Shown here one piece after another: positions 29,201 through 60,561 of a stretch of DNA of 64,000 bases. The stretch covers positions 343,850 to 407,849 of the forward strand of contig JAUIJL010000006.1 in the NCBI GenBank assembly GCA_030431255.1, written 5' to 3'. Numbering within the stretch: the stretch's first letter is position 1; each line of letters begins with the position of its first letter. Below the pieces are notes generated by a model that was given only the letters and a program-made list of their open reading frames with translations, was not told the DNA's origin and made no database searches. The translations under genes were made by a program, and so were the position numbers. Source of the stretch: Thermoanaerobaculia bacterium. GTDB taxonomy: Bacteria > Acidobacteriota > Thermoanaerobaculia > Multivoradales > J023.

Positions 29201-30301
29201 ATGCAGATCCTTTCAGTAGGCCGCGCCTTTCCCGAGCACTATTACGATCAAGACCAGCTGCTCGACGCCCTGCGGAGTCATTGGCTCAAGGAGCATTTCA
29301 ATCCTCAGCGTCTCGAGCGCCTGCACAAGAACGTCTTGGTTTCAGGCCGACATCTCGCTCTGCCCTTGGAATCCTACGAAAAACTCGACACCTGGGGTGC
29401 GGCCAATGATGCGTGGATTCGAGTCGCCCAGAAAGTAGGTGCCGAAGCGGTTCTCGACGCCCTGAACCGGGCGAAGGTGGAGCCTGAAGAAGTGCGCATG
29501 CTGATGACCGCCACGGTCACCGGTGTGGCGACGCCGTCACTCGATGCCCTTTTGATCAACCGGCTCGGTCTGCGCTCGGACACCAAGCGGGTGCCTATCT
29601 TCGGCCTGGGTTGTGTCGCCGGCGCCGCCGGAATCGCCCGGGCGGCGGATTATGTGAAGGCATATTCCGATCAGATCGCCGTATTTCTCTCGGTGGAGCT
29701 GTGCTCTCTGACCGTGCAGAAGGGAGATCTATCGATTCCCAACCTGATCGCCACGGGATTATTCGGTGATGGTGCGGCCGCCGTGGTCATCGCGGGTGCA
29801 GAAGCGGTTCAGAGGCGGTCGGCGCAGCGGTCGGCGACCGGGCCGATGGTGCCTAGCGGACAGCCGGTGCCGACCATCTTGGACACGCGATCGGTGTTCT
29901 ATCCGGACACCGAGCGGGTCATGGGTTGGGATATCTCGGATCGTGGTTTCCAGATCGTGCTTTCGGCCGATGTTCCCGACATGGTCCACCGCCATTTGCG
30001 GGAAGATGTCGACGGGTTCTTGGCGGAGCATCACCTCACACGAGCCGATATATCCACGTGGATCTGTCATCCGGGTGGGCCGAAGGTCCTTTCCGCCATG
30101 CAAGAAGGCCTGGAGCTACCCGACGGAGCCCTCGACCTCACGTGGAAGAGCTTGAGGTCTGTGGGCAATTTGTCGTCGAGCTCGGTGTTGATGGTGCTGC
30201 GCGACACTCTTGACCAGGGAGATCCATCCCCGGGGGATTTGGCGATGCTACTGGCGATGGGTCCTGGGTTTTGCTCGGAGCTGGTGTTGTTGAGGTGGTG
30301 A
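29201..30301 (+). CDS. Type III polyketide synthase
   Basis: A 366-residue chalcone-synthase-fold enzyme that extends an acyl starter with malonyl-type units on one active site. The triad is complete: Cys138 in FGLGCVAGAAG, His290 in ICHPGGPKVL and Asn323 in SVGNLSSSSVL. FGDGAAAVVI is near residue 188. The bacterial alkylpyrone/alkylresorcinol group fits best, meaning fatty acyl starters. Upstream biotin carboxylase and carrier could supply the extender. Usual partners (ICMT-like methyltransferase, flavoprotein hydroxylase, as in the srsABC operon of Streptomyces griseus) are not next to it but about 10 kb away at 40674-44516. Product is inferred to be a phenolic or pyrone lipid. Confidence 0.93.
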   Translation: MQILSVGRAFPEHYYDQDQLLDALRSHWLKEHFNPQRLERLHKNVLVSGRHLALPLESYEKLDTWGAANDAWIRVAQKVGAEAVLDALNRAKVEPEEVRMLMTATVTGVATPSLDALLINRLGLRSDTKRVPIFGLGCVAGAAGIARAADYVKAYSDQIAVFLSVELCSLTVQKGDLSIPNLIATGLFGDGAAAVVIAGAEAVQRRSAQRSATGPMVPSGQPVPTILDTRSVFYPDTERVMGWDISDRGFQIVLSADVPDMVHRHLREDVDGFLAEHHLTRADISTWICHPGGPKVLSAMQEGLELPDGALDLTWKSLRSVGNLSSSSVLMVLRDTLDQGDPSPGDLAMLLAMGPGFCSELVLLRW

Positions 30302-39699: not shown

Positions 39700-40677
39700 A
39701 TGCGAGCCTCAATCCGCGGTGTGGAGCCGCAACAACAGCTCACGAAGCTCTTGGACGCGCTGATTCGCGAGCAAGAGAGCCCCTGGCCCGGCCTCAAGGC
39801 CTACAAAGTCACCGCGCCCACGGAAGCGAGCCCGGTAGTCTATCGACCCTGCCTGTGCGTAGTGGCCCAAGGGGCCAAGGTCGCCACGTTGGGGACCCGG
39901 GTGTATCACTATGATCCCTTGAGATTTTTGATCATCGGTGCGCCGCTGCCCGTAACGGCGAGGATCGTGAAAGCCTCGCCGGAGGAGCCGTTCATCTCCA
40001 TGGTGCTCGACATCGACAGCTTGGTCGTTCACGAGCTGCTGTTGCAAATGGAAGAGCCAAGTCCCGCCGAGGCGTGGAACGGTCAGCCACCGATCCGGTC
40101 GTCACCGCTGGAAGAACCTCTGACCGATGCGCTGATGCGGTTCTTGCAAGCTGTCCGAAGGCCCACGGATCGGCAGATCCTCGCGCCGTCGATCTTTCGC
40201 GAGATCATCTACCATCTCCTGAGCAGCGAGCAGGGCGACATCCTGCGGGTCGTGGCGGCTCGCCACGGTCAAGCACGGGGTATCGTCCAAGCCTTGGACT
40301 ACATCCATCACCATTTCGACCGGCGCTTGGACATCCCGACTCTGGCGCGCGAAGCGGGTATGAGTGTCTCGGGCCTTCATCACAACTTCAAAGCGGCCAC
40401 GGACTTCTCGCCCATGCAATACCTCAAACGGATCCGCCTGGAACGGGCGTTGCACCTGATGCTCGATCAGGAGCTGGCGGCAGGAGAGGCCGCATTCAAG
40501 GTCGGCTATGTCAGCCCGTCGCAATTCAGCCGGGAGTTCAAGCGCCTATTCGGCTCGCCTCCGCGGGAGTATCTGGAGATTCAACGCGCTCAGCGGGGCA
40601 TGGAATCCATCGGCGCGTCCCTGCTGACCGAGGCTGGTCGAGACACGATCCACGGAACCGAGCGAGCCACTCCATGA
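39700..40677 (+). CDS. AraC-family transcriptional regulator
   Basis: A 325-residue regulator with an N-terminal AraC_N cupin-like domain (about 30-185: YRPCLCVVAQGAKVATLG, ISMVLDIDS) and a C-terminal double helix-turn-helix (about 205-300: DRRLDIPTLAREAGMSVSGLHHNFKAATDFSPMQYLKRIRLERA, then AFKVGYVSPSQFSREFKRLFGSPPREY). The ATG at 39700 gives a proper family N-terminus. It is divergent from an aldo/keto reductase gene and its stop codon overlaps the methyltransferase start by four bases, so it can link regulation of both flanks. Similar AraC_N regulators often respond to aldehydes; this is only a family tendency. Confidence 0.92.
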   Translation: MRASIRGVEPQQQLTKLLDALIREQESPWPGLKAYKVTAPTEASPVVYRPCLCVVAQGAKVATLGTRVYHYDPLRFLIIGAPLPVTARIVKASPEEPFISMVLDIDSLVVHELLLQMEEPSPAEAWNGQPPIRSSPLEEPLTDALMRFLQAVRRPTDRQILAPSIFREIIYHLLSSEQGDILRVVAARHGQARGIVQALDYIHHHFDRRLDIPTLAREAGMSVSGLHHNFKAATDFSPMQYLKRIRLERALHLMLDQELAAGEAAFKVGYVSPSQFSREFKRLFGSPPREYLEIQRAQRGMESIGASLLTEAGRDTIHGTERATP

Positions 40678-41267
40678 GCAGCCAAACGCTGTTTTTATGC
40701 CTGATGCTCGCCGTGGTCGCCGAGCGGGGCTTGGAGCTGCTCATCACCCGACGAAATGCCCGGCACCTCAAGGCGAGGGGAGGCCATGAGGTGGGGGAGG
40801 CCCATTATCCTTGGATGGCCTTGTTGCACACGGGCCTATTGGTGGGAGCGCCCCTGGAGGTCTACATGCTTCAACGGACCTTTGAGCCGTGGTTGGGCTG
40901 GCCCATGGTCGGCGTGCTGTGCGCGACCATGGCCTTGCGTTATTGGGCCATCATCACCCTGGGCGATCGTTGGACCGCGCGGGTCTTTGTGGTGCCGGGC
41001 GAATCTCCGGTGCTCGGAGGCCCGTACCGTTACTTCAGACACCCCAATTACCTGGCGGTGGTGCTGGAAGTCGCGGCCCTACCCTTGATCCACAGCGCTT
41101 GGCTGACGGCGAGTCTGGGCTCCGTGGGCAACGCCTTCATGTTGAGAACCCGCATTCGGGTAGAGGAGGAGGCGTTGCAGGACGCCGCGGAATATTTCGA
41201 GGTGCTCGGGGATCGGCCGAGCCTCCCCTTCGGATCCAGCCGTCGTCCTTCCAAGGACGAGAGATGA
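40674..41267 (+). CDS. ICMT-family integral membrane methyltransferase
   Basis: A 197-residue membrane protein of the isoprenylcysteine carboxyl methyltransferase superfamily. Several membrane helices (about 5-22, 45-65, 75-95, 128-145) frame the SAM-binding C-terminal segment GGPYRYFRHPNYLAVVLEVAALPL, followed by RTRIRVEEEAL, both diagnostic. Bacterial relatives such as SrsB O-methylate phenolic lipids made by type III polyketide synthases. It overlaps the araC stop and the next acyl carrier gene start (ATGA both times). A REP-like AATGCCCGGCACC core lies inside its coding sequence at 40754-40766, encoding N-A-R-H. Confidence 0.85.
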   Translation: MSSQTLFLCLMLAVVAERGLELLITRRNARHLKARGGHEVGEAHYPWMALLHTGLLVGAPLEVYMLQRTFEPWLGWPMVGVLCATMALRYWAIITLGDRWTARVFVVPGESPVLGGPYRYFRHPNYLAVVLEVAALPLIHSAWLTASLGSVGNAFMLRTRIRVEEEALQDAAEYFEVLGDRPSLPFGSSRRPSKDER

Positions 41268-52052: not shown

Positions 52053-53141
52053 ATGAGCGAAAACCCACTGAGATTACGGAAGATTCACCACGTTGAAATG
52101 TGGGTAGGCAACGCACGGCAAGCGGCCTACTTCTATCGTCAAGCGTTCGGCTTCTCCCAATTCGCCTATCGGGGTTTGGAAACCGGCGAGCGAGACACGA
52201 TCTCGTTCGCTCTGCGCCAAGGCCAGGCCGTGTTGGTCGTCACCTCTTCCTACGACCCGGAGTCCGACATCAGCCGCCATGTTCAGCTCCACGGTGACGG
52301 GGTCAAAGATATTTGCTTCCATGTCAGTGATGTGGACGCCACCTACGCCAGGGTGATGGAGAACGGTGCGGTGAGCGTGGCCGAGCCCTACGACATGGAG
52401 GATGAAAACGGCACCGTACGTCGTGCCACGATCGAGACCTACGGCGAGACGGTCCACTCCTTCGTGTCCGACAAGGGTTACAACGGCCCGTTTCTGCCGG
52501 GATTCGTGGAAGATGTGGTGGAGACAGAGGACGCCGGCCTGTTGCGTTTCGACCACATGGTCGGCAACGTGGAGCTGGGAAAAATGGAAACCTGGGCATC
52601 CTTCTACGAGAAGGTGCTCGGCTTTAAGCGCTACATCCACTTCGACGAGAGCCAGATCTCCACGGAATACTCGGCTCTGATGTCGATCGTCATGTCCGAC
52701 AACTCCTACGCCATCAAATTCCCGATCAACGAGCCGGCCGCCGGGCTCAAAAAGAGCCAAATCGAGGAATATTTGGAGTTCTATCGGGGTGCCGGCGTGC
52801 AACACATCGCGATGTTGACGAAGGACATCGTCAAAACGGTCTCTCGCCTGATCGACAACGGAGTCAAATTCATCACCGTGCCGGAAACCTACTACGAAGA
52901 GCTGCCGAATCGCGTGGGGCCCATCGAAGAGGATGTGTCCGCCCTGCAGCCCCTCGGCATCCTGGTGGACCGAGACGATGAGGGCTATTTGCTCCAGCTC
53001 TTCACCCAGCCGGTCATGGATCGACCGACCCTTTTCTTTGAGATCATCCAGCGCAAAGGATCCAAGGGTTTCGGCGAAGGAAATTTCAAGGCGCTGTTCG
53101 AGGCCATCGAGAGAGAGCAAGCCAAGCGCGGAAATCTATAA
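52053..53141 (+). CDS. hppD: 4-hydroxyphenylpyruvate dioxygenase
   Basis: A 362-residue Fe(II) dioxygenase that turns 4-hydroxyphenylpyruvate into homogentisate in tyrosine breakdown. Two vicinal-oxygen-chelate halves are visible. Iron ligands are His168 (RFDHMVGN), His251 (GVQHIAML) and Glu330 ([11 protein letters not shown]). The C-terminal [21 protein letters not shown] closes the active site, as in characterised enzymes. It leads an operon with hmgA 24 bases downstream. Confidence 0.97.
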
Positions 53142-53165
53142 TCAGCCGCCGAAGCGAGGACCAAG

Positions 53166-54332
53166 ATGACGTACTACTACAAGCTCGGAGACATACCCCA
53201 TAAGCGGCATGTGCAATTCCGCCAGCCGGACGGCTCGCTCTTCCATGAAGAGCTGATGGGGATCCACGGTTTTGCCGGCATCCAATCGATCCTCTATCAC
53301 GTGCACCCGCCGACCGAGGTCCGCGAGGTGGATGTGGTGGCCGACGCCGCCATCGAATACGAAGAGCAAGAGCACCTGCGGCACCGGCACTTCCGTTCGG
53401 ACATGGTGGAGCCCGGTGGAGACGCCGTCCAGGGTCGAGTCCCTTTGATGGGCAACCAAGAAGTGGTGCTCTATGCCGTGCGTCCGACCCGGGCCATGGA
53501 CTACTACTACCGCTTTGCCCACGGCGACGAGGTCATCTTCGTGCACGACGGCACCGGTATTCTGGAGAGCCAATTCGGTCGCTTGAGCTATCGCCCGGGC
53601 GACTATCTGGTGATTCCCACCGGGGTTATGTGGCGCATCATTCCCGACGACGGTGTCGATCAGCGATTCTTTGTGACCGAAGCCTTCGGTCATATCGAGC
53701 CGCCCAAGCGCTATTTGAACCGCTACGGCCAATTCCTGGAGCATTCCCCCTTCTGTGAGCGCGACATTCGGCCGCCCGAAGAGCTCGTGACCTACGACGA
53801 AAAGGGTGAGTTTGAGGTCCACGTCAAGGCCCGGGGACGCATTACCCGCTTCGTCTACGACAACCATCCCCTCGACGTGGTGGGCTGGGACGGGCATCTC
53901 TGGCCTTACGCCTTCAACATTGAAGACTTTGAGCCGATCACCGGCCGTGTTCACCAGCCACCGCCGGTCCACCAGACCTTCGATGGCCCGGGATTCGTCA
54001 TCTGTTCCTTCGTTCCGCGTCTATTCGACTATCACCCCGAAGCCATTCCGGCTCCGTACAACCACTCCAACGTCGATTCCGACGAGGTGTTGTACTACGT
54101 GGAAGGCGACTTCATGTCCCGCAAGGGCATCGATCGTGCCTCGTTGACCGTGCATCCGAACGGCATCCCCCACGGGCCGCACCCCGGCACCTATGAGGCC
54201 TCGATCGGCAAGGAGAAAACCGAAGAGCTGGCGGTCATGGTCGATACCTTCCGGCCGCTCAAGATCGCCAAATCGGTGTTGTCCATGGAAGACGCCGACT
54301 ATCCCTTCAGCTGGTTGCCGAAGAACCACTGA
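53166..54332 (+). CDS. hmgA: Homogentisate 1,2-dioxygenase
   Basis: A 388-residue cupin dioxygenase that opens homogentisate to maleylacetoacetate. Start MTYYYKLGDIPHKRHVQFR is typical of bacterial short forms. The iron-binding region is seen in PYNHSNVDSDEVLYYVEGDF (His and Glu ligands) and HPNGIPHGPHPG (His). It is shorter than the human enzyme (445) but matches bacterial lengths. Maleylacetoacetate isomerase and fumarylacetoacetase are not in the window, so the pathway finishes elsewhere. Its stop codon overlaps the next gene start. Confidence 0.96.
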   Translation: MTYYYKLGDIPHKRHVQFRQPDGSLFHEELMGIHGFAGIQSILYHVHPPTEVREVDVVADAAIEYEEQEHLRHRHFRSDMVEPGGDAVQGRVPLMGNQEVVLYAVRPTRAMDYYYRFAHGDEVIFVHDGTGILESQFGRLSYRPGDYLVIPTGVMWRIIPDDGVDQRFFVTEAFGHIEPPKRYLNRYGQFLEHSPFCERDIRPPEELVTYDEKGEFEVHVKARGRITRFVYDNHPLDVVGWDGHLWPYAFNIEDFEPITGRVHQPPPVHQTFDGPGFVICSFVPRLFDYHPEAIPAPYNHSNVDSDEVLYYVEGDFMSRKGIDRASLTVHPNGIPHGPHPGTYEASIGKEKTEELAVMVDTFRPLKIAKSVLSMEDADYPFSWLPKNH

Positions 54333-56106: not shown

Positions 56107-57261
56107 TTGCTGACCCAGATCGACGCGGAATCCGCGGTCAAGGAGCGCTACGGCGCCGCCGCCCAAGCCCAGGAAGCCCAGCTTTGCTGTCCGGTGGATT
56201 ACGATCCCCAATATTTGAAAATCATTCCCCAAGAAGTCATCGAGCGAGACTACGGTTGTGGTGACCCGTCGAAACATCTGAAAAAGGGTGAAACCGTGCT
56301 CGACTTGGGTAGCGGCACGGGCAAGATCTGCTTCATTGCCTCCCAGGTGGTCGGCGCCGAAGGTAAGGTCATCGGCATCGACATGACGTCCGAGATGTTG
56401 GATGTGGCCCGGCGGAATACTCCGGTGGTGGCCGAGCGAACCGGCTTCGACAACGTGGAGTTTCGGCGTGGCCGGATTCAGGATCTCGCCCTAGATCTCG
56501 AGCTTCTGGAGCAGCATCTAAAGGAATCCCCGGTTTCCACTACCGAAGGATTCTTCGAGCTCGAATCCATAGCTAGCCGGCTTCGCCGGGAGCGCCCGTT
56601 GGTGGAAAACGATTCTGTCGACGTGGTGGTTTCCAATTGCGTCCTCAACCTGGTCGCTGATGTGGAAAAACACCAAATGTTCCGCGAGATTCACCGGGTG
56701 CTGCGTCGCGGCGGCCGGGCAGTGATTTCCGACATCGTTTCCGACGAGCGGGTCAGCGACGAGATGCAACGGGATCCGGAGCTTTGGAGCGGCTGTATTT
56801 CCGGTGCGCTCACCGAGCACGGTTTCCTGAAGGCATTTGAGGACGCGGGTTTTTACGGCGTTCGGGTCCTCGAACGGCAGGAGGAGCCTTGGCAAACCGT
56901 TGCCGGCATCGAGTTTCGCTCGTTGACCGTCGAGGCCTTCAAAGGCAAGGAAGGCCCTTGTTTGGAGCGGAATCAAGCGGTGATCTACCGGGGTCCGTTC
57001 AAAGAGGTGTTGGACGACGATGGCCATCGCATGGAACGCGGGCGCCGCTACGCAGTGTGCGACAAGACCTATCAGATGTACAAACGGGCCCCCTATCAAG
57101 GTCAATTCGACTTTATCGAGCCCCGGATCCAGATCCCGCTCGAGCAAGCTCAGCCGTTCGATTGTGCTCGAACCGTTGAGCGAGATCCCCGGGAGACCAA
57201 AGGGGAAGGTTATTCGCTGACCACAGAAGTGGAAGCCTGCTGCGGACCGGATTGCTGCTGA
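56107..57261 (+). CDS. arsM: ArsM-type arsenite methyltransferase with extended C-terminus
   Basis: A 384-residue SAM-dependent methyltransferase. The three arsenic-binding cysteines of ArsM are placed as expected: Cys51 in DYGCGDP, Cys178 in VVSNCVLNLV and Cys230 in SGCISGAL. SAM motif VLDLGSGTGKICF is at about 64-76. Past residue 275 comes an extension with a VIYRGPFKEVLDDDGH motif and further cysteines, ending CCGPDCC; a CC pair also lies at 27-28. These extra cysteine pairs suggest additional metalloid or thiol chemistry. TTG start at 56107 follows GGAGGTAG. It overlaps nothing upstream and is followed at once by the radical SAM gene. Confidence 0.88.
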   Translation: MLTQIDAESAVKERYGAAAQAQEAQLCCPVDYDPQYLKIIPQEVIERDYGCGDPSKHLKKGETVLDLGSGTGKICFIASQVVGAEGKVIGIDMTSEMLDVARRNTPVVAERTGFDNVEFRRGRIQDLALDLELLEQHLKESPVSTTEGFFELESIASRLRRERPLVENDSVDVVVSNCVLNLVADVEKHQMFREIHRVLRRGGRAVISDIVSDERVSDEMQRDPELWSGCISGALTEHGFLKAFEDAGFYGVRVLERQEEPWQTVAGIEFRSLTVEAFKGKEGPCLERNQAVIYRGPFKEVLDDDGHRMERGRRYAVCDKTYQMYKRAPYQGQFDFIEPRIQIPLEQAQPFDCARTVERDPRETKGEGYSLTTEVEACCGPDCC

Positions 57262-57263
57262 GG

Positions 57264-58202
57264 ATGGCCGGCTCCGCGGAAAACGTCGTCGAAACAGGCA
57301 ACGCAGCCGGCCGAGCTGCGACCGGCCGAGCTGCGGCGAGACAAGCCGTGCCCCGGGTCGAGCTGCGTTCCCTCGACACGTTGTGGTTTCAGGTCGCGGG
57401 CACATTGTGCAATCTGGCGTGCAACCACTGCTTCATCTCGTGCTCTCCCACCAACCACACCCACGAATACCTGTCTCTCGAAGAGGTTCAGCGGTATTTG
57501 GACGAGGCCGTGCAGCTCGGGGTTAAGGAGTACTACTTCACCGGAGGCGAGCCGTTTCTGAATCCCGACATGGAGGCGATTTTAGAGGCCACCTTGAAGC
57601 TCGGTCCGGCCACGGTCTTGACCAACGGTTTGTTGTTGGATCCCGAGCGATGTGCTCGGTTGGCGGCGATCGCCCAGGCTTCGGAATATTCCTTTGATCT
57701 CAGAATCTCAATCGACGGCTATGACGCTGAGGGCAACGATCCGATCCGCGGCCCCGGCACCTTCGATCGCATTCTCGAAGGGGCTCAAAATGCCCAACGG
57801 GCCGGCGTCAACCCGGTGTTGACGGTGACCGAGGTGCGCGAGGAGAACGGCTCTCGTCGAGGGCGGGAAAAGTTCATGGCATTGCTCAGGGAGCTGGGCA
57901 TCGAGCGTCCACGATTGAAGATCTTGCCGGTCTTTCACCTCGGCGCCGAGGCTCAACGGAGCGGTGCCTACGAGGCGTGGCAGAAACTTGCCGACCAAGA
58001 TGCCGCGGGTGAGGGCTGGGACCACCTTCAATGCAGCTCGTGCCGGATGGTCACGGACCAGGGGGTGTGGGTGTGCCCGATCTTGGTCAACGAGCCCGAG
58101 GGCCGCATGGGACAGACCTTGGCCGACACCCTCGACAGCTTCCCTCTCGAGCACCCGGCATGTTGGACTTGCCATGTCCACGGCGTGAGCTGCCGAACCT
58201 AG
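57264..58202 (+). CDS. Radical SAM protein with SPASM-like cysteine-rich C-terminus
   Basis: A 312-residue radical SAM enzyme. The CxxxCxxC motif is CNLACNHC with Cys49, Cys53 and Cys56, followed by FTGGEPFLNPDME and LTNGLLLDPER. The C-terminus carries CSSCRMVTDQGVWVCPILVNEP and ACWTCHVHGVSC, enough cysteines for an auxiliary cluster. The ATG at 57264 follows the arsM stop by two bases; a TTG at 57252 would overlap it. A tandem 15-base duplication (57307-57336) encodes Ala/Gly/Arg-rich residues near the N-terminus. It differs from ArsS of arsenosugar clusters in sequence around the cluster motif. Substrate unknown. Confidence 0.88.
   Translation: MAGSAENVVETGNAAGRAATGRAAARQAVPRVELRSLDTLWFQVAGTLCNLACNHCFISCSPTNHTHEYLSLEEVQRYLDEAVQLGVKEYYFTGGEPFLNPDMEAILEATLKLGPATVLTNGLLLDPERCARLAAIAQASEYSFDLRISIDGYDAEGNDPIRGPGTFDRILEGAQNAQRAGVNPVLTVTEVREENGSRRGREKFMALLRELGIERPRLKILPVFHLGAEAQRSGAYEAWQKLADQDAAGEGWDHLQCSSCRMVTDQGVWVCPILVNEPEGRMGQTLADTLDSFPLEHPACWTCHVHGVSCRT
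57307..57336. repeat. 15-base duplication in the radical SAM gene
   Basis: The unit CCGGCCGAGCTGCGA/G is present twice head to tail, with one terminal mismatch. It extends an Ala/Arg-rich N-terminal leader that precedes the catalytic core. Confidence 0.7.
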
Positions 58203-58261
58203 ACGGACGAGCCCAATTTTGGGCCAACAGCCCGGACATTCCGTTCGTGCGAGGCGTATCC

Positions 58262-59284
58262 ATGAGCCATCGAATTCCAGAAGATCAATCCGTAAGGCTC
58301 GACCGAGCCCTGCTCCGGGAGCATCGGGAGAAGCTACAAGCCCACCGCGGTAAAGCGACCTGGGGCGAGAAGCTGGTTCCCTTGCGGGAATTCAAAGAGG
58401 CGGCCCAAGGTTATGGTCGAGCCCTCGAGCCGAAGCACCGGGAGCAAGAGGTCAGTCGCTTCTTGGACGCCCGCAACGACGGGATACCCCATGAGGGACC
58501 CTTCTCGAAAATCGTCGCCTTTGGTGGTATTTACAACAATAGCTACGGCCTGGAAGCTGTGCTCGAGCAGGCGTCGGCAAGCGGGGCCGAGGCAACCTAT
58601 TGCCTGGGTGACTTCGGGGGGTTTGGTCCGCACCCCGAAAAGGTCTGGCCGCTGCTGGTCCAAGGTGGCGTCCGTTGCATCCAAGGCAACTACGAGGAAT
58701 CGTTGTCGTCGGGTAGGGACGATTGCAATTGCGGTTATTCCGATCCGAGAGACAACCATTTCGCCACCATCTCCTATGGTTATACCGCGGAGAATTGCTC
58801 TCCGGAGTTCCGTGCTTGGATGGGTACCCACCCCAAACGACGTCGGGTGTTGGTGGGAGATCGCCGGGTTCTTCTGGTTCACGGCTCACCGCGCCAAGTG
58901 AACGAATTTCTCTTCGCCTCTACCAGTCCGACGGCGTTCCTGGAGGTCTTGCTCGATCAAGAGCAGTGTGACGCGATCCTGTGCACCCATACGGGGCTTC
59001 ACTGGCACCGCAAGCTGCCCTCGGGTCGGGATGTGGTCAATGTGGGAGTGATAGGGCGACCGGCCAACGACGGCAATACCCATGTTTGGTATGCCGAAAT
59101 CACTGATCGAGGTTCCGAGCTCGGTGTTCAGCTCAAACCGTTATCCTATGACTTTCAGGCGTTGGCCCAGGACATGCGCGCGGCAGGCTTGCCCGAAGAG
59201 TTTGTGGAGACCGTTCTGACCGGCTGGTGGACGACCTGCCTCGAGATTCTGCCGGCCCGTGAGCGCGCGTCATCACGATTCTGA
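58262..59284 (+). CDS. Metallophosphoesterase with altered first metal motif
   Basis: A 340-residue calcineurin-like phosphoesterase. Motifs II-V are present: GDFGGFGPHPEKVW (GDxxG), GNYEESL (GNHE-like), LLVHGSP and LCTHTGLHW. Motif I, normally DxHGN, is FGGIYNNSYGLEAVL: the metal-binding aspartate is a glycine and the histidine a tyrosine. The residual fold is otherwise typical of YfcE-type enzymes. GAGG lies before the ATG at 58262. It lies 59 bases after the radical SAM gene, in the same direction. Loss of motif I may mean altered metal use or a non-hydrolytic role. Confidence 0.82.
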   Translation: MSHRIPEDQSVRLDRALLREHREKLQAHRGKATWGEKLVPLREFKEAAQGYGRALEPKHREQEVSRFLDARNDGIPHEGPFSKIVAFGGIYNNSYGLEAVLEQASASGAEATYCLGDFGGFGPHPEKVWPLLVQGGVRCIQGNYEESLSSGRDDCNCGYSDPRDNHFATISYGYTAENCSPEFRAWMGTHPKRRRVLVGDRRVLLVHGSPRQVNEFLFASTSPTAFLEVLLDQEQCDAILCTHTGLHWHRKLPSGRDVVNVGVIGRPANDGNTHVWYAEITDRGSELGVQLKPLSYDFQALAQDMRAAGLPEEFVETVLTGWWTTCLEILPARERASSRF

Positions 59285-59325
59285 CTCGGGGTTTCGTTTT
59301 GTTCCGAGACGAGGTGGAGATTTCG

Positions 59326-60561
59326 ATGGGTGAAACAGCGAAAGAAGCGACAGCCGAGAACCTGAAAGGTCATATCGCAATTCTCGGCGCGGGACCGACC
59401 GGAATCGAAGCGGCCCTAGCCGCACACGAGCACGGTTACGGCTTCAGCCTCTACGAAGCCTCGCCTCAGATTGCCGGTCACGTCCAGAGCTGGAGCCATG
59501 TCAGGCTCTTCACTCCGTGGGCCATGAATATCTCGGCCAGGATGTCCCGCGCCCTGGAGCGACAAGGTTTGGATCTTCCCGAGCCGGATGACTATCCCAC
59601 TGGAGGAGACCTGGTCCGTCGCCTATTCGATCCCTTGAGCCGACTGCCGGAAATCGCTCCGAGCCTCGCGCTCGGAACCAAGGTGATCTCCGTGGGTCGG
59701 GAGGGTCTGCTCAAACACGAGGAAATCGGCAGCGAGCTCAGGTCCCATCGTCCATTCAGGCTGCTGTTGGAGAGTGCCGACGGTAAGGAGCGGCTGGAAT
59801 CCGCGGATGTGGTGCTCGACTGCTCGGGCAACGCGGTCCCGAATACCTTAGGGGGAAGCGGGCTGCCGGCTCTCGGTGAGAGGCATCTGGAAAATCGGAT
59901 CGGGAGAGAGGTTCCGGGCTCGGAGGAGCTGCGTCGTCTGGCGGATCAACGAATCCTGTTGGTGGGTGCCGGGCATTCTGCACAAACGGCTCTTCGAGAG
60001 CTCGCGGGTCTGGCGAAAGAGCATCCGGACACACAAATCCACTGGGTCTTGCGGGGGCAAGCGCCCGCGCCCTTGGAGGACGATCCGCTGGAAGAGCGCT
60101 TTCGCCTGATGTCCCATGCGGCTGATCTTGCAGCCGCCCAGCCGGACTATCTGACCATTCATGAGCGATGCACCGTCGACGGCTTGGCGGAGCAGGGGGA
60201 GGCCCCCAATGAGCACCCGGTCTCCGTCACCTTACGGCGCCTAGACGGAACCACCGAAAACGTGGAGGCCGATCATATTCTCGCCCTAACCGGCCGGGTC
60301 GGAGATCATCTGCTGTATCGCCAGCTGCAAGTCCACGAGTGTTACGCCACCAGCGGGCCCATGAAACTGGCCGCAGCCTTGTTGGGGGCCTCAGGCGCGG
60401 GTGGCGATTGTTTGGCTCAGACAAGCCTCGGACCCGAGACTTTACGCAGCCCGGAGCCCGGATTCTTTATCCTGGGAAGCAAGTCTTACGGCCGGCGAAA
60501 CGACTACTTGATGCAGGTGGGCTGGCAGCAAGTGGACGAGATCTTCCAGCTCCTGGACTGA
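59326..60561 (+). CDS. FAD/NAD(P)-dependent oxidoreductase, flavin monooxygenase-like
   Basis: A 411-residue flavoprotein. FAD loop ILGAGPTGIEAALAAHEHGYGFSLYEAS is at about residue 17, and a second Rossmann loop ILLVGAGHSAQTALRELAGL near 210 should bind NADPH. The segment HVQSWSHVRLFTPWAMNIS after the first loop marks the flavin monooxygenase/thioredoxin reductase-like group. It begins 41 bases after the phosphoesterase stop, with GGAG before the ATG at 59326, and completes a four-gene run with arsM and the radical SAM gene. It probably oxidises or hydroxylates a cassette intermediate. Confidence 0.85.
   Translation: MGETAKEATAENLKGHIAILGAGPTGIEAALAAHEHGYGFSLYEASPQIAGHVQSWSHVRLFTPWAMNISARMSRALERQGLDLPEPDDYPTGGDLVRRLFDPLSRLPEIAPSLALGTKVISVGREGLLKHEEIGSELRSHRPFRLLLESADGKERLESADVVLDCSGNAVPNTLGGSGLPALGERHLENRIGREVPGSEELRRLADQRILLVGAGHSAQTALRELAGLAKEHPDTQIHWVLRGQAPAPLEDDPLEERFRLMSHAADLAAAQPDYLTIHERCTVDGLAEQGEAPNEHPVSVTLRRLDGTTENVEADHILALTGRVGDHLLYRQLQVHECYATSGPMKLAAALLGASGAGGDCLAQTSLGPETLRSPEPGFFILGSKSYGRRNDYLMQVGWQQVDEIFQLLD

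Follow-up and report, generated by a model that had tools for sequence, protein, structure and literature searches.

What is the purpose of a gene cassette in which an ArsM-type methyltransferase is encoded next to a radical SAM enzyme that is not ArsS, a metallophosphoesterase-fold protein and a flavoprotein? Such a set is present in the 64,000-nt stretch of DNA analyzed here (the window) as four co-directional open reading frames on the + strand at positions 56107-60561, referred to in the following as MT, RS, MPE and FAD; the cassette is not described in the literature that we searched.

56107..57261, + strand: MT, ArsM-type SAM methyltransferase, 384 aa; TTG start with GGAGG upstream
57264..58202, + strand: RS, radical SAM enzyme, 312 aa; PF04055, E 2.6e-23
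58262..59284, + strand: MPE, metallophosphoesterase-fold protein, 340 aa from ATG; PF12850, 29 bits
59299 or 59326 (ATG) to 60561, + strand: FAD, flavoprotein with a pyridine-nucleotide reductase/N-hydroxylase fold; PF07992, 34 bits

An earlier note on this DNA had described four genes running in one direction with gaps of 2, 59 and 41 bases, and this layout agrees with ATG start codons at 57264, 58262 and 59326. An upstream TTG at 57252 would alternatively yield an RS of 316 aa that overlaps MT. A longer MPE frame also exists, and our numbering of MPE residues is counted from 58250.

Relationship of the four proteins to known families

Judged by its profile and PDB matches (ArsM structures 4kw7/4fr0, E 2e-36), MT is related to ArsM and is not a member of either of two curated models, since it scores 344 bits with the arsinothricin ArsM model NF040538 (cut-off 500) and 206 bits with PRK11873 (cut-off 263). 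It possesses Cys27/28, Cys51, Cys178 and Cys230, plus a C-terminal Cys tail. The three ArsM cysteines previously reported as retained, those at 51, 178 and 230, are invariant in 15/15 close sequences; in a wider alignment of 13 MT sequences, Cys178 and Cys230 are found in all and Cys51 in 12, the sole exception being the protein from locus L110, whose N terminus is cut short. The proposal that MT carries an added C-terminal domain did not hold, as this feature is not peculiar to MT. The NF040538 alignment extends to residue 336 of 384, so that only the last part of the protein with its Cys tail lies beyond the match, and the accessible part of PMC8552651 gives BgArsM as a protein of 378 aa with Cys residues at 30/54/181/233, a similar length and a Cys spacing identical to that of MT with an offset of 3. 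The notion of an ArsM with a new domain was consequently rejected: the architecture of MT is that of the known BgArsM/NF040538 type. An ArsS-associated MT of the same type (L213) scores 357 bits with NF040538. Since the MT type thus occurs together with ArsS as well, it is uninformative on the product.

The radical SAM motif CX3CX2C of RS (C53, C57, C60) is present in 25/25 aligned sequences, one row of a wider alignment being called too short to hold it. With five further invariant Cys residues (261, 275, 304, 307 and 314, numbered from the 57252 start), eight are conserved in all. The best NCBIfam model for RS is that of the Rv1681-family radical SAM protein (NF049973), yet its 114 bits are far below the cut-off of 380; a literature search on Rv1681 with "radical SAM" found no paper. 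That RS differs from ArsS, as had been noted before, is borne out by a score of 50.7 bits with the ArsS model TIGR04167 (cut-off 300), and no ArsS match was found in the own genome of the cassette. Furthermore, the RS profile gives 23-63 bits on 23 ArsS proteins and more than 250 bits on 114 RS proteins, a separation so clean that we rejected RS as a sequence-divergent ArsS. A profile-profile alignment of RS with ArsS covers 236 columns (E 1.3e-17, 22% identity), which counts for an ArsS-like role, and the late Cys pattern of RS is present in ArsS, too. This pattern resembles SPASM/twitch domains generally, which counts against the explanation that we favor below. The solved structures matching RS belong to other radical SAM families only, and no PhnJ model is found among the best 25 of the 55 models matching it.

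MPE had been regarded as a metallophosphoesterase, and its calcineurin-like fold is confirmed by a structural model (pLDDT 88.8) whose nearest PDB fold in Foldseek is SapH (Spr1479; 3qfm, E 2.5e-17, 23% identity, TM 0.79 by target), an asymmetric Ap4A hydrolase/phosphodiesterase to which, together with the 3rqz-type metallophosphoesterases, its likeness extends; a literature search on SapH gave no lead. In 29/29 aligned members, however, G93-x-Y95 replaces the D-x-H of motif I and Tyr148 replaces the catalytic His (GNY for GNH), whereas structure 3rqz, aligned to MPE, keeps both D-x-H and GNHD. MPE also differs in its invariant cysteines, C159-x-C161 and C330. As metal and catalytic motif residues are missing, phosphoester hydrolysis by MPE is doubtful.

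For FAD, previously termed a flavin monooxygenase, the flavoprotein part of this assignment stands and the monooxygenase part is not established: the nearest folds to its model (pLDDT 86.4) are YpdA (7a76, E 6.7e-18), a bacillithiol disulfide reductase, and also N-hydroxylases such as PvdA (3s5w, E 1.5e-15). Despite the likeness in fold to YpdA, model scores are far below the curated cut-offs. The FAD homologue in L094 matches the YpdA model with 57 bits (cut-off 340) and the ArsO model NF040505 with 41 bits (cut-off 425), and the FAD protein of the window has no match to the latter at E<=0.001.

Conservation of the cassette and exchange of partners with ArsS

The partnership of the four genes is seen again in other genera and phyla, usually with a shared direction and in varying order, and the set is therefore more than a product of chance. 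All four genes are present in 24/80 named RS loci, including Caldithrix/KSB1 and a Chthoniobacterales bin with other gene orders, so that the concern raised earlier, that these genes might not be kept together elsewhere, has been settled in favor of a cassette. Our gene caller, which relies on codon usage, misses or shortens some genes (RS in L100, a late start in L105, an uncalled ArsS in L226); this count and those of the ArsS-locus survey are therefore lowered.

Among 396 Acidobacteriota genomes, RS (at least 200 bits) and MPE (at least 300 bits) occur together in 27, where 28 possess RS and 27 possess MPE (expected 1.9); the RS-MPE pair is hence near-obligate in the Acidobacteriota sampled. 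Two weaker MPE matches were dropped from this count, and nine weaker radical SAM matches were counted separately as RS2. Two RS2 proteins (99 and 87 bits) and one divergent RS (94 bits) likewise have NF049973 as their best named model. Outside the core group, 17/42 RS genomes have neither the MT type nor a match to NF008823 (arsenite methyltransferase) at E<=1e-20, many of the genomes without a detected ArsM being MAGs whose completeness is not established. Apparently, RS-MPE can therefore exist without arsenic methylation. MPE, in turn, is missing from nine planctomycete RS genomes; both observations count against our favored explanation. The viral contigs searched held no match, and among the 20 listed of 42 plasmid records the best reached only 34% identity. 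A search for 16S in the own genome of the cassette gave no match.

The MT type is found in 28 of the 396 genomes, and 27 of these possess RS (11), ArsS (13) or RS2 (3), where 7.1 would be expected. One and the same MT type is common to RS, RS2 and ArsS. In a tree of 40 MT proteins, the six ArsS-partnered ones fall in three places as drawn, and well-supported branches force three changes of the ArsS label, which may amount to one gain followed by two losses; the only RS2-partnered MT is placed inside a clade of 26 rows that are otherwise RS-partnered or unlinked. In L213, L223, L228, L288, L289 and L290, no more than a few genes separate a window-type MT gene from ArsS, and a classic or ArsM-like methyltransferase gene is abutted by an RS2 or RS-like gene in L283 and L246. 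RS and ArsS overlap in two genomes (4.7 expected, P 0.12), MPE and ArsS in one (4.5 expected, P 0.041), a signal too weak to uphold a strict exclusion of RS and ArsS, which we rejected. In the ArsS loci (20 fetched, ArsS called in 19), no MPE or FAD homologue is found within 7 kb of ArsS.

Genes adjoining the cassette in related genomes

TIGR04169 and TIGR04282 are families that NCBI associates with arsenosugars. Homologues of TIGR04169 adjoin ArsS, with at most one gene in between, in 11/19 ArsS loci, and the two that were scanned exceed the cut-off (156 and 180 bits). Six Acidobacteriota loci (L094, L095, L098, L101, L103 and L104) likewise have a TIGR04169-type relative beside FAD or FAD-RS, and all six of these proteins score 112-118 bits, just under the cut-off of 120. 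With these neighbors and the swapping of partners, the arsenical theme proposed earlier has gained in strength, whereas arsenic as the actual substrate is still a prediction. TIGR04169 had appeared to be the single commonest neighbor of RS in a biased, hand-picked set of 97; this was rejected, as a rule-based scan of 118 RS neighbors gives a tie between ABC transporter ATPases (6) and TIGR04169/CMD proteins (6), followed by DUF2064 (TIGR04282 proteins; 5); this tie counts against the explanation given below.

A TIGR04282 copy over the cut-off is present in 50/59 relatives, 19 of these without MPE, and the arsenosugar name of the family is therefore weak evidence. We consequently rejected genomic TIGR04282 as proof of arsenosugar synthesis; only a second, divergent and mostly cassette-linked copy is informative, which is found in 23/36 MPE-bearing relatives (19 on the MPE contig) and in 0/23 without MPE. 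All cassette-linked TIGR04282 proteins covered by a scan or a listing reach 54-105 bits, below the cut-off of 134. Neither a TIGR04169 nor a TIGR04282 gene adjoins the window's own cassette, and its own genome has no acr3 match; these findings, and the scores of both families below their cut-offs, count against our explanation. A MIP channel (aquaporin) is encoded beside MT in L090 and L110 (162 and 180 bits, cut-off 171). PstS/PstC/PstB-type genes reside inside the cassette in L063, and the same clusters are found in L067 and L079. These channel and transporter genes likewise favor the arsenic reading.

A model for the cassette and its alternatives

We consider it somewhat more probable than an even chance that the cassette encodes an arsenic-metabolizing ArsM plus radical SAM system, with RS standing where arsenosugar clusters have ArsS. 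With the arsenosugar pair ArsM-ArsS (TIGR04167, with TIGR04169/TIGR04282/TIGR04283-type neighbors), it has in common that a radical SAM enzyme is encoded near a methyltransferase of the ArsM type, and in related genomes ArsS is accompanied by the same MT type and by TIGR04169 proteins; it differs in that RS is not ArsS by score and in MPE and FAD, whose homologues were unseen near ArsS (19 loci, 7 kb). The substrate, the transferred group and the functions assigned to FAD and MPE we infer, and the chemistry is predicted. MT would bind trivalent arsenic via Cys51/178/230, with Cys27/28 as a relay, and then methylate it. The CX3CX2C cluster of RS would cleave SAM, and a SAM-derived carbon fragment, most likely the 5'-deoxyadenosyl group as with ArsS, would be joined to trivalent arsenic. 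FAD may give or take electrons in thiol steps or in those between As(III) and As(V). MPE, with its nucleotide-phosphoesterase fold and the lost ligands of one metal site, would not act as an ordinary phosphatase; it might bind or position a nucleotide-like intermediate or RS.

The accessible part of PMC12159101 names two radical SAM enzymes that form C-As bonds, ArsS (adenosylation) and ArsL (3-amino-3-carboxypropyl transfer). It is conceivable, though we advance this tentatively, that RS represents a third class beside them, equipped with a dedicated pseudo-phosphoesterase and its own flavoprotein, and replacing ArsS in several phyla to make undescribed organoarsenicals. If so, a different radical SAM subfamily would form this bond with the same ArsM lineage, and the suspected makers of complex organoarsenicals would extend to Acidobacteriota, Gemmatimonadota, Planctomycetota, Calditrichota/KSB1 and Verrucomicrobiota. 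One would then also have to ask what use a radical SAM enzyme has for a phosphoesterase fold that lacks the usual metal site.

Unlikely, in our view, is that RS-MPE constitutes an older module for a non-arsenic substrate (e.g., a nucleotide, lipid or peptide) to which arsenic genes were added in some lineages, or that MT has a different metalloid, such as selenium, as its substrate. This would suit the 17/42 RS genomes without detected ArsM, the Planctomycetota with RS and without MPE, the position of RS behind an AMP-binding/ACP/acyltransferase gene in L137 (scanned), L138, L237-L239 and related loci, and that, in Gemmatimonadota loci such as L117, of RS-MPE beside a gene for a sigma factor. 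It is disfavored by the same ArsM lineage being partnered by RS, RS2 and ArsS, and by the recurrence beside RS of TIGR04169-type proteins that are ArsS-linked in the same phylum.

Yet more improbable is that RS-MPE cleaves C-As (or C-P) bonds in the salvage or detoxification of organoarsenicals, by analogy to the radical SAM C-P lyase, with the linked phosphate/phosphonate-type ABC transporters importing the substrate. L093 encodes, together with RS, a substrate-binding protein of the phosphonate type (PhnS-like, 106 bits, cut-off 310), genes of the same clusters lie upstream of RS in L099, L110 and L242, ABC ATPases tie as the commonest RS neighbors, and the RS genomes lacking a detected ArsM would fit as well. 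However, the MT-RS pairing across phyla and the exchange with ArsS better suit synthesis, and PhnJ is absent among the best models for RS named above.

We give an equally low chance to an ArsL-like transfer of an aminocarboxypropyl group to arsenic by RS, as in the arsinothricin cluster arsQML of B. gladioli: the arsinothricin ArsM model gives the highest score for MT, which resembles BgArsM in length and Cys spacing, a radical SAM gene directly follows MT, and RS in genomes without detected ArsM suits an enzyme acting before methylation, but the MT type, found with ArsS too, does not tell the product, MT stays at 344 of the required 500 bits, the four-gene set has MPE and FAD in addition and no permease gene, and RS, with 312-316 aa and eight conserved Cys residues, five more than in BgArsL, is set apart by the description of the latter in the accessible part of PMC8552651 as a protein of 428 aa with three.

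The four-gene cassette and its conservation

Positions 56107-60561 of the window (G000:C53:343850-407849, from the bacterium's own genome of 10.2 Mb in 54 contigs) are filled by four open reading frames, all on the + strand:

56107-57261, + strand, ArsM-type SAM methyltransferase (MT)
57264-58202, + strand, radical SAM enzyme (RS)
58262-59284, + strand, metallophosphoesterase-fold protein (MPE)
59299-60561, + strand, flavoprotein (FAD)

The short intergenic gaps given in the earlier note are reproduced if RS, MPE and FAD each begin at their ATG. The protein encoded upstream of the cassette carries cyclic-nucleotide-binding and FHA domains, and downstream follow a HAD hydrolase on the opposite strand and a sulfatase. 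A second genome of the same genus (G001) also carries the cassette, on a 95,288-base contig. By eye, two genes at 52053-54332 resemble 4-hydroxyphenylpyruvate dioxygenase and homogentisate dioxygenase; this pair is syntenic with the cassette in the close relatives L039 and L044. A type III polyketide synthase-like gene (29201-30301) and an isoprenylcysteine-methyltransferase-like gene (40674-41267) belong to clusters whose members also occur close to the cassette elsewhere, in 15 and 11 further loci, respectively.

With a best match of at least 330 bits as the orthologue threshold, MPE is present in 36 of 59 relatives and in 22 of 26 genera, own genus counted; full-domain paralogues scored below 95 bits, two further rows being split orthologue pieces. 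Among the loci compared, 20 wider and 11 short, the gene set recurs with altered order, insertions and absences, and in genome G023 it is split on one 60,117-base contig, with MT and RS together and MPE-FAD about 20 kb away (L067, L053). Scanning the RS alignment against a named-genome collection of 84,980 species yielded 95 relatives. The 80 best were retained, and their gene content was scored by local profiles, each locus extending up to about 21 kb. All four genes are present in 24 of these 80 loci, RS-MPE-FAD in 17, RS-MPE in 20, RS-MPE-MT and RS-MT in two each, and RS-FAD and RS-FAD-MT in one each; at one locus (L100) MPE only was called, although RS was found there by tblastn. RS stands alone in the remaining 12, every one titled Planctomycetota, Phycisphaerae or Phycisphaerales. 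Complete sets extend beyond the Acidobacteriota to L105 (Caldithrix), L111, L113, L132 (KSB1) and L110 (Chthoniobacterales). The planctomycete loci with RS and no MPE nearby are L108, L109, L115, L116, L120, L122, L123, L127, L129, L130, L133 and L136; in the nine of these 12 genomes that were searched, MPE was not found.

Properties of the four proteins

The best model for MT is that of the arsinothricin ArsM (NF040538; 344 bits, cut-off 500); it scores 206 bits against PRK11873 (cut-off 263) and matches solved ArsM structures at an E-value of about 2e-36. Its Cys27, 51, 178 and 230 have their counterparts three positions further along in the 378-residue BgArsM from B. gladioli, at Cys30, 54, 181 and 233 (PMC8552651).

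RS matches PF04055; among the best 25 of its 55 NCBIfam matches, the Rv1681 family ranks first with 114 bits and the arsenosugar enzyme ArsS (TIGR04167) reaches 50.7 bits. Numbered from the upstream start at 57252, C53, C57 and C60 are kept in 25 of 25 aligned sequences, and C261, C275, C304, C307 and C314 in 27 of 27.

MPE has a weak Metallophos_2 match, and its AlphaFold2 model (pLDDT 88.8) resembles SapH (3qfm). In all 29 members, motif I reads G-x-Y, not D-x-H, and GNY replaces GNH, whereas 3rqz, aligned to the family profile, has the usual D-x-H and GNHD. Still present in the 29-member alignment are D121, N147, H211 and H247 (numbered from 58250), and C159-x-C161 and C330 are invariant. 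An ordinary phosphatase role for MPE is unlikely. FAD matches Pyr_redox_2, and the nearest folds of its model (pLDDT 86.4) are YpdA and, among others, PvdA-type N-hydroxylases.

Neighbours of RS and its predicted reaction

RS was called in 76 of 81 examined loci, and in 19 of the 76 a TIGR04282-type gene (cluster 4) lies less than 7 kb away, members of this cluster being identified as such at 54-99 bits, below the cut-off of 134. In six Acidobacteriota loci, a TIGR04169-type gene stands next to FAD or FAD-RS; all six proteins were scanned and scored 112-118 bits, below the cut-off of 120. L063 contains PstS (150 bits, cut-off 207), PstC (above cut-off) and PstB (246 bits, cut-off 343), and its Pst clusters also occur in L067 and L079; a MIP channel adjoins MT in L090 and L110 (162 and 180 bits, cut-off 171). 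A rule-based neighbour set took in 140 of 192 proteins, or 118 after removal of 22 from six Gemmatimonadota loci with repeated synteny. Among these 118, the commonest Pfam families were ABC_tran (6), CMD (6, the TIGR04169 proteins), DUF2064 (5, the TIGR04282 proteins) and LptF_LptG (4), and the 25 NCBIfam models listed were all generic ABC ATPases with six members each. TIGR04169 had ranked first in a hand-picked set of 97, partly through selection; in the rule-based set it is level with ABC_tran. In L093 (scanned), L099, L110 and L242, the genes directly upstream of RS encode an ABC transporter whose substrate-binding protein is of the phosphonate type. In L137 (7225-9900; scanned), L138, L237-L239, L241, L244 and L245, RS follows an AMP-binding/ACP/acyltransferase-type gene of about 890 codons, an arrangement that suggests a lipid link in some Acidobacteriota.

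We group RS functionally with ArsS because the ArsM lineage and the ArsS-adjoining TIGR04169 partner are common to both. The two profiles align over 236 columns with 22% identity, and both enzymes have a late set of five cysteines with near-equal spacing; this pattern resembles SPASM/twitch domains in general and is therefore not diagnostic. The RS step is most likely an ArsS-like formation of a C-As bond with other helpers, in which the transferred group may be that of ArsS or another one. According to the review PMC12159101, ArsS adenosylates arsenic and the arsinothricin enzyme ArsL transfers a 3-amino-3-carboxypropyl group. Among the papers listed by searches on arsenosugar, arsinothricin and organoarsenical clusters, which covered few subscription journals, none described the cassette.

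Several findings count against the arsenic reading. Above-cut-off TIGR04282 occurs in 50 of the 59 relatives, 19 of the 50 being without MPE, and a second, divergent copy in 23 of the 36 with MPE (19 on the MPE contig) and in none of the 23 without. Only the second copy tracks the cassette. The own genome holds one above-cut-off TIGR04282 gene, on contig C45; the cassette's own contig gave no match at E<=1e-10, and a search of the genome for acr3 gave none. Of the RS genomes that lie beyond the core group, 13 of 43 carry a window-type MT and 25 of 42 an NF008823 match at E<=1e-20 (11 above cut-off; some are MT itself); 17 of 42 lack both. Ten of these 43 are without MPE, namely nine planctomycetes and the 2.2-Mb bin of L112 (titled Caldithrix).

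Partner exchange between RS, RS2 and ArsS

Among 396 Acidobacteriota genomes, RS was counted in 28 (>200 bits; G101 truncated, G083 divergent), MPE in 27 (>300 bits; two weaker matches dropped), MT in 28 (some fragmentary), ArsS in 66 (all above cut-off) and RS2, a separate, RS-related radical SAM class, in nine (142-163 bits). In statistics that ignore kinship between genomes, RS and MPE overlap in 27 genomes (1.9 expected), and MT overlaps with RS in 11 (2.0), with ArsS in 13 (4.7) and with RS2 in three (0.6). Taken together, 27 of the 28 MT genomes have RS, RS2 or ArsS (7.1 expected), the exception being G322. The overlap of ArsS is one genome with MPE (4.5 expected, P 0.041), two with RS (4.7 expected, P 0.12) and none with RS2 (1.5 expected); genus g63 contains both kinds, two genomes with RS and two with ArsS.

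Twenty ArsS loci of the same phylum were fetched and ArsS was called in 19, in 11 of which a TIGR04169 homologue adjoins it with at most one gene between; the two that were scanned both exceed the model cut-off. A window-type MT lies a few genes from ArsS in L213, L223, L228, L288, L289 and L290. By eye, the L223 and L228 clusters also contain a PiT-like phosphate transporter, a TVP38-like protein, a TIGR04283-type transferase and a MerA/dihydrolipoyl-dehydrogenase-type flavoprotein, the last also scanned. PstSCAB, FAD and TIGR04282 of the RS cassettes may have functions analogous to these ArsS-cluster helpers.

In a tree of 40 MT sequences, the six ArsS-partnered ones fall in three places, and the starred branches force three changes of the ArsS label, which could be a single gain with two losses. 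The one RS2-partnered MT in the tree lies inside a 26-row clade (100/100), the rest of which is RS-partnered or unlinked. RS2 adjoins MT in L278 (9099-10043), L279 and L285, and a classic ArsM in L283 (5379-6377); with 146-166 bits to the RS profile in these four loci, RS2 is possibly another arsenic-linked radical SAM subfamily. A divergent RS adjoins an ArsM-like methyltransferase in L246.
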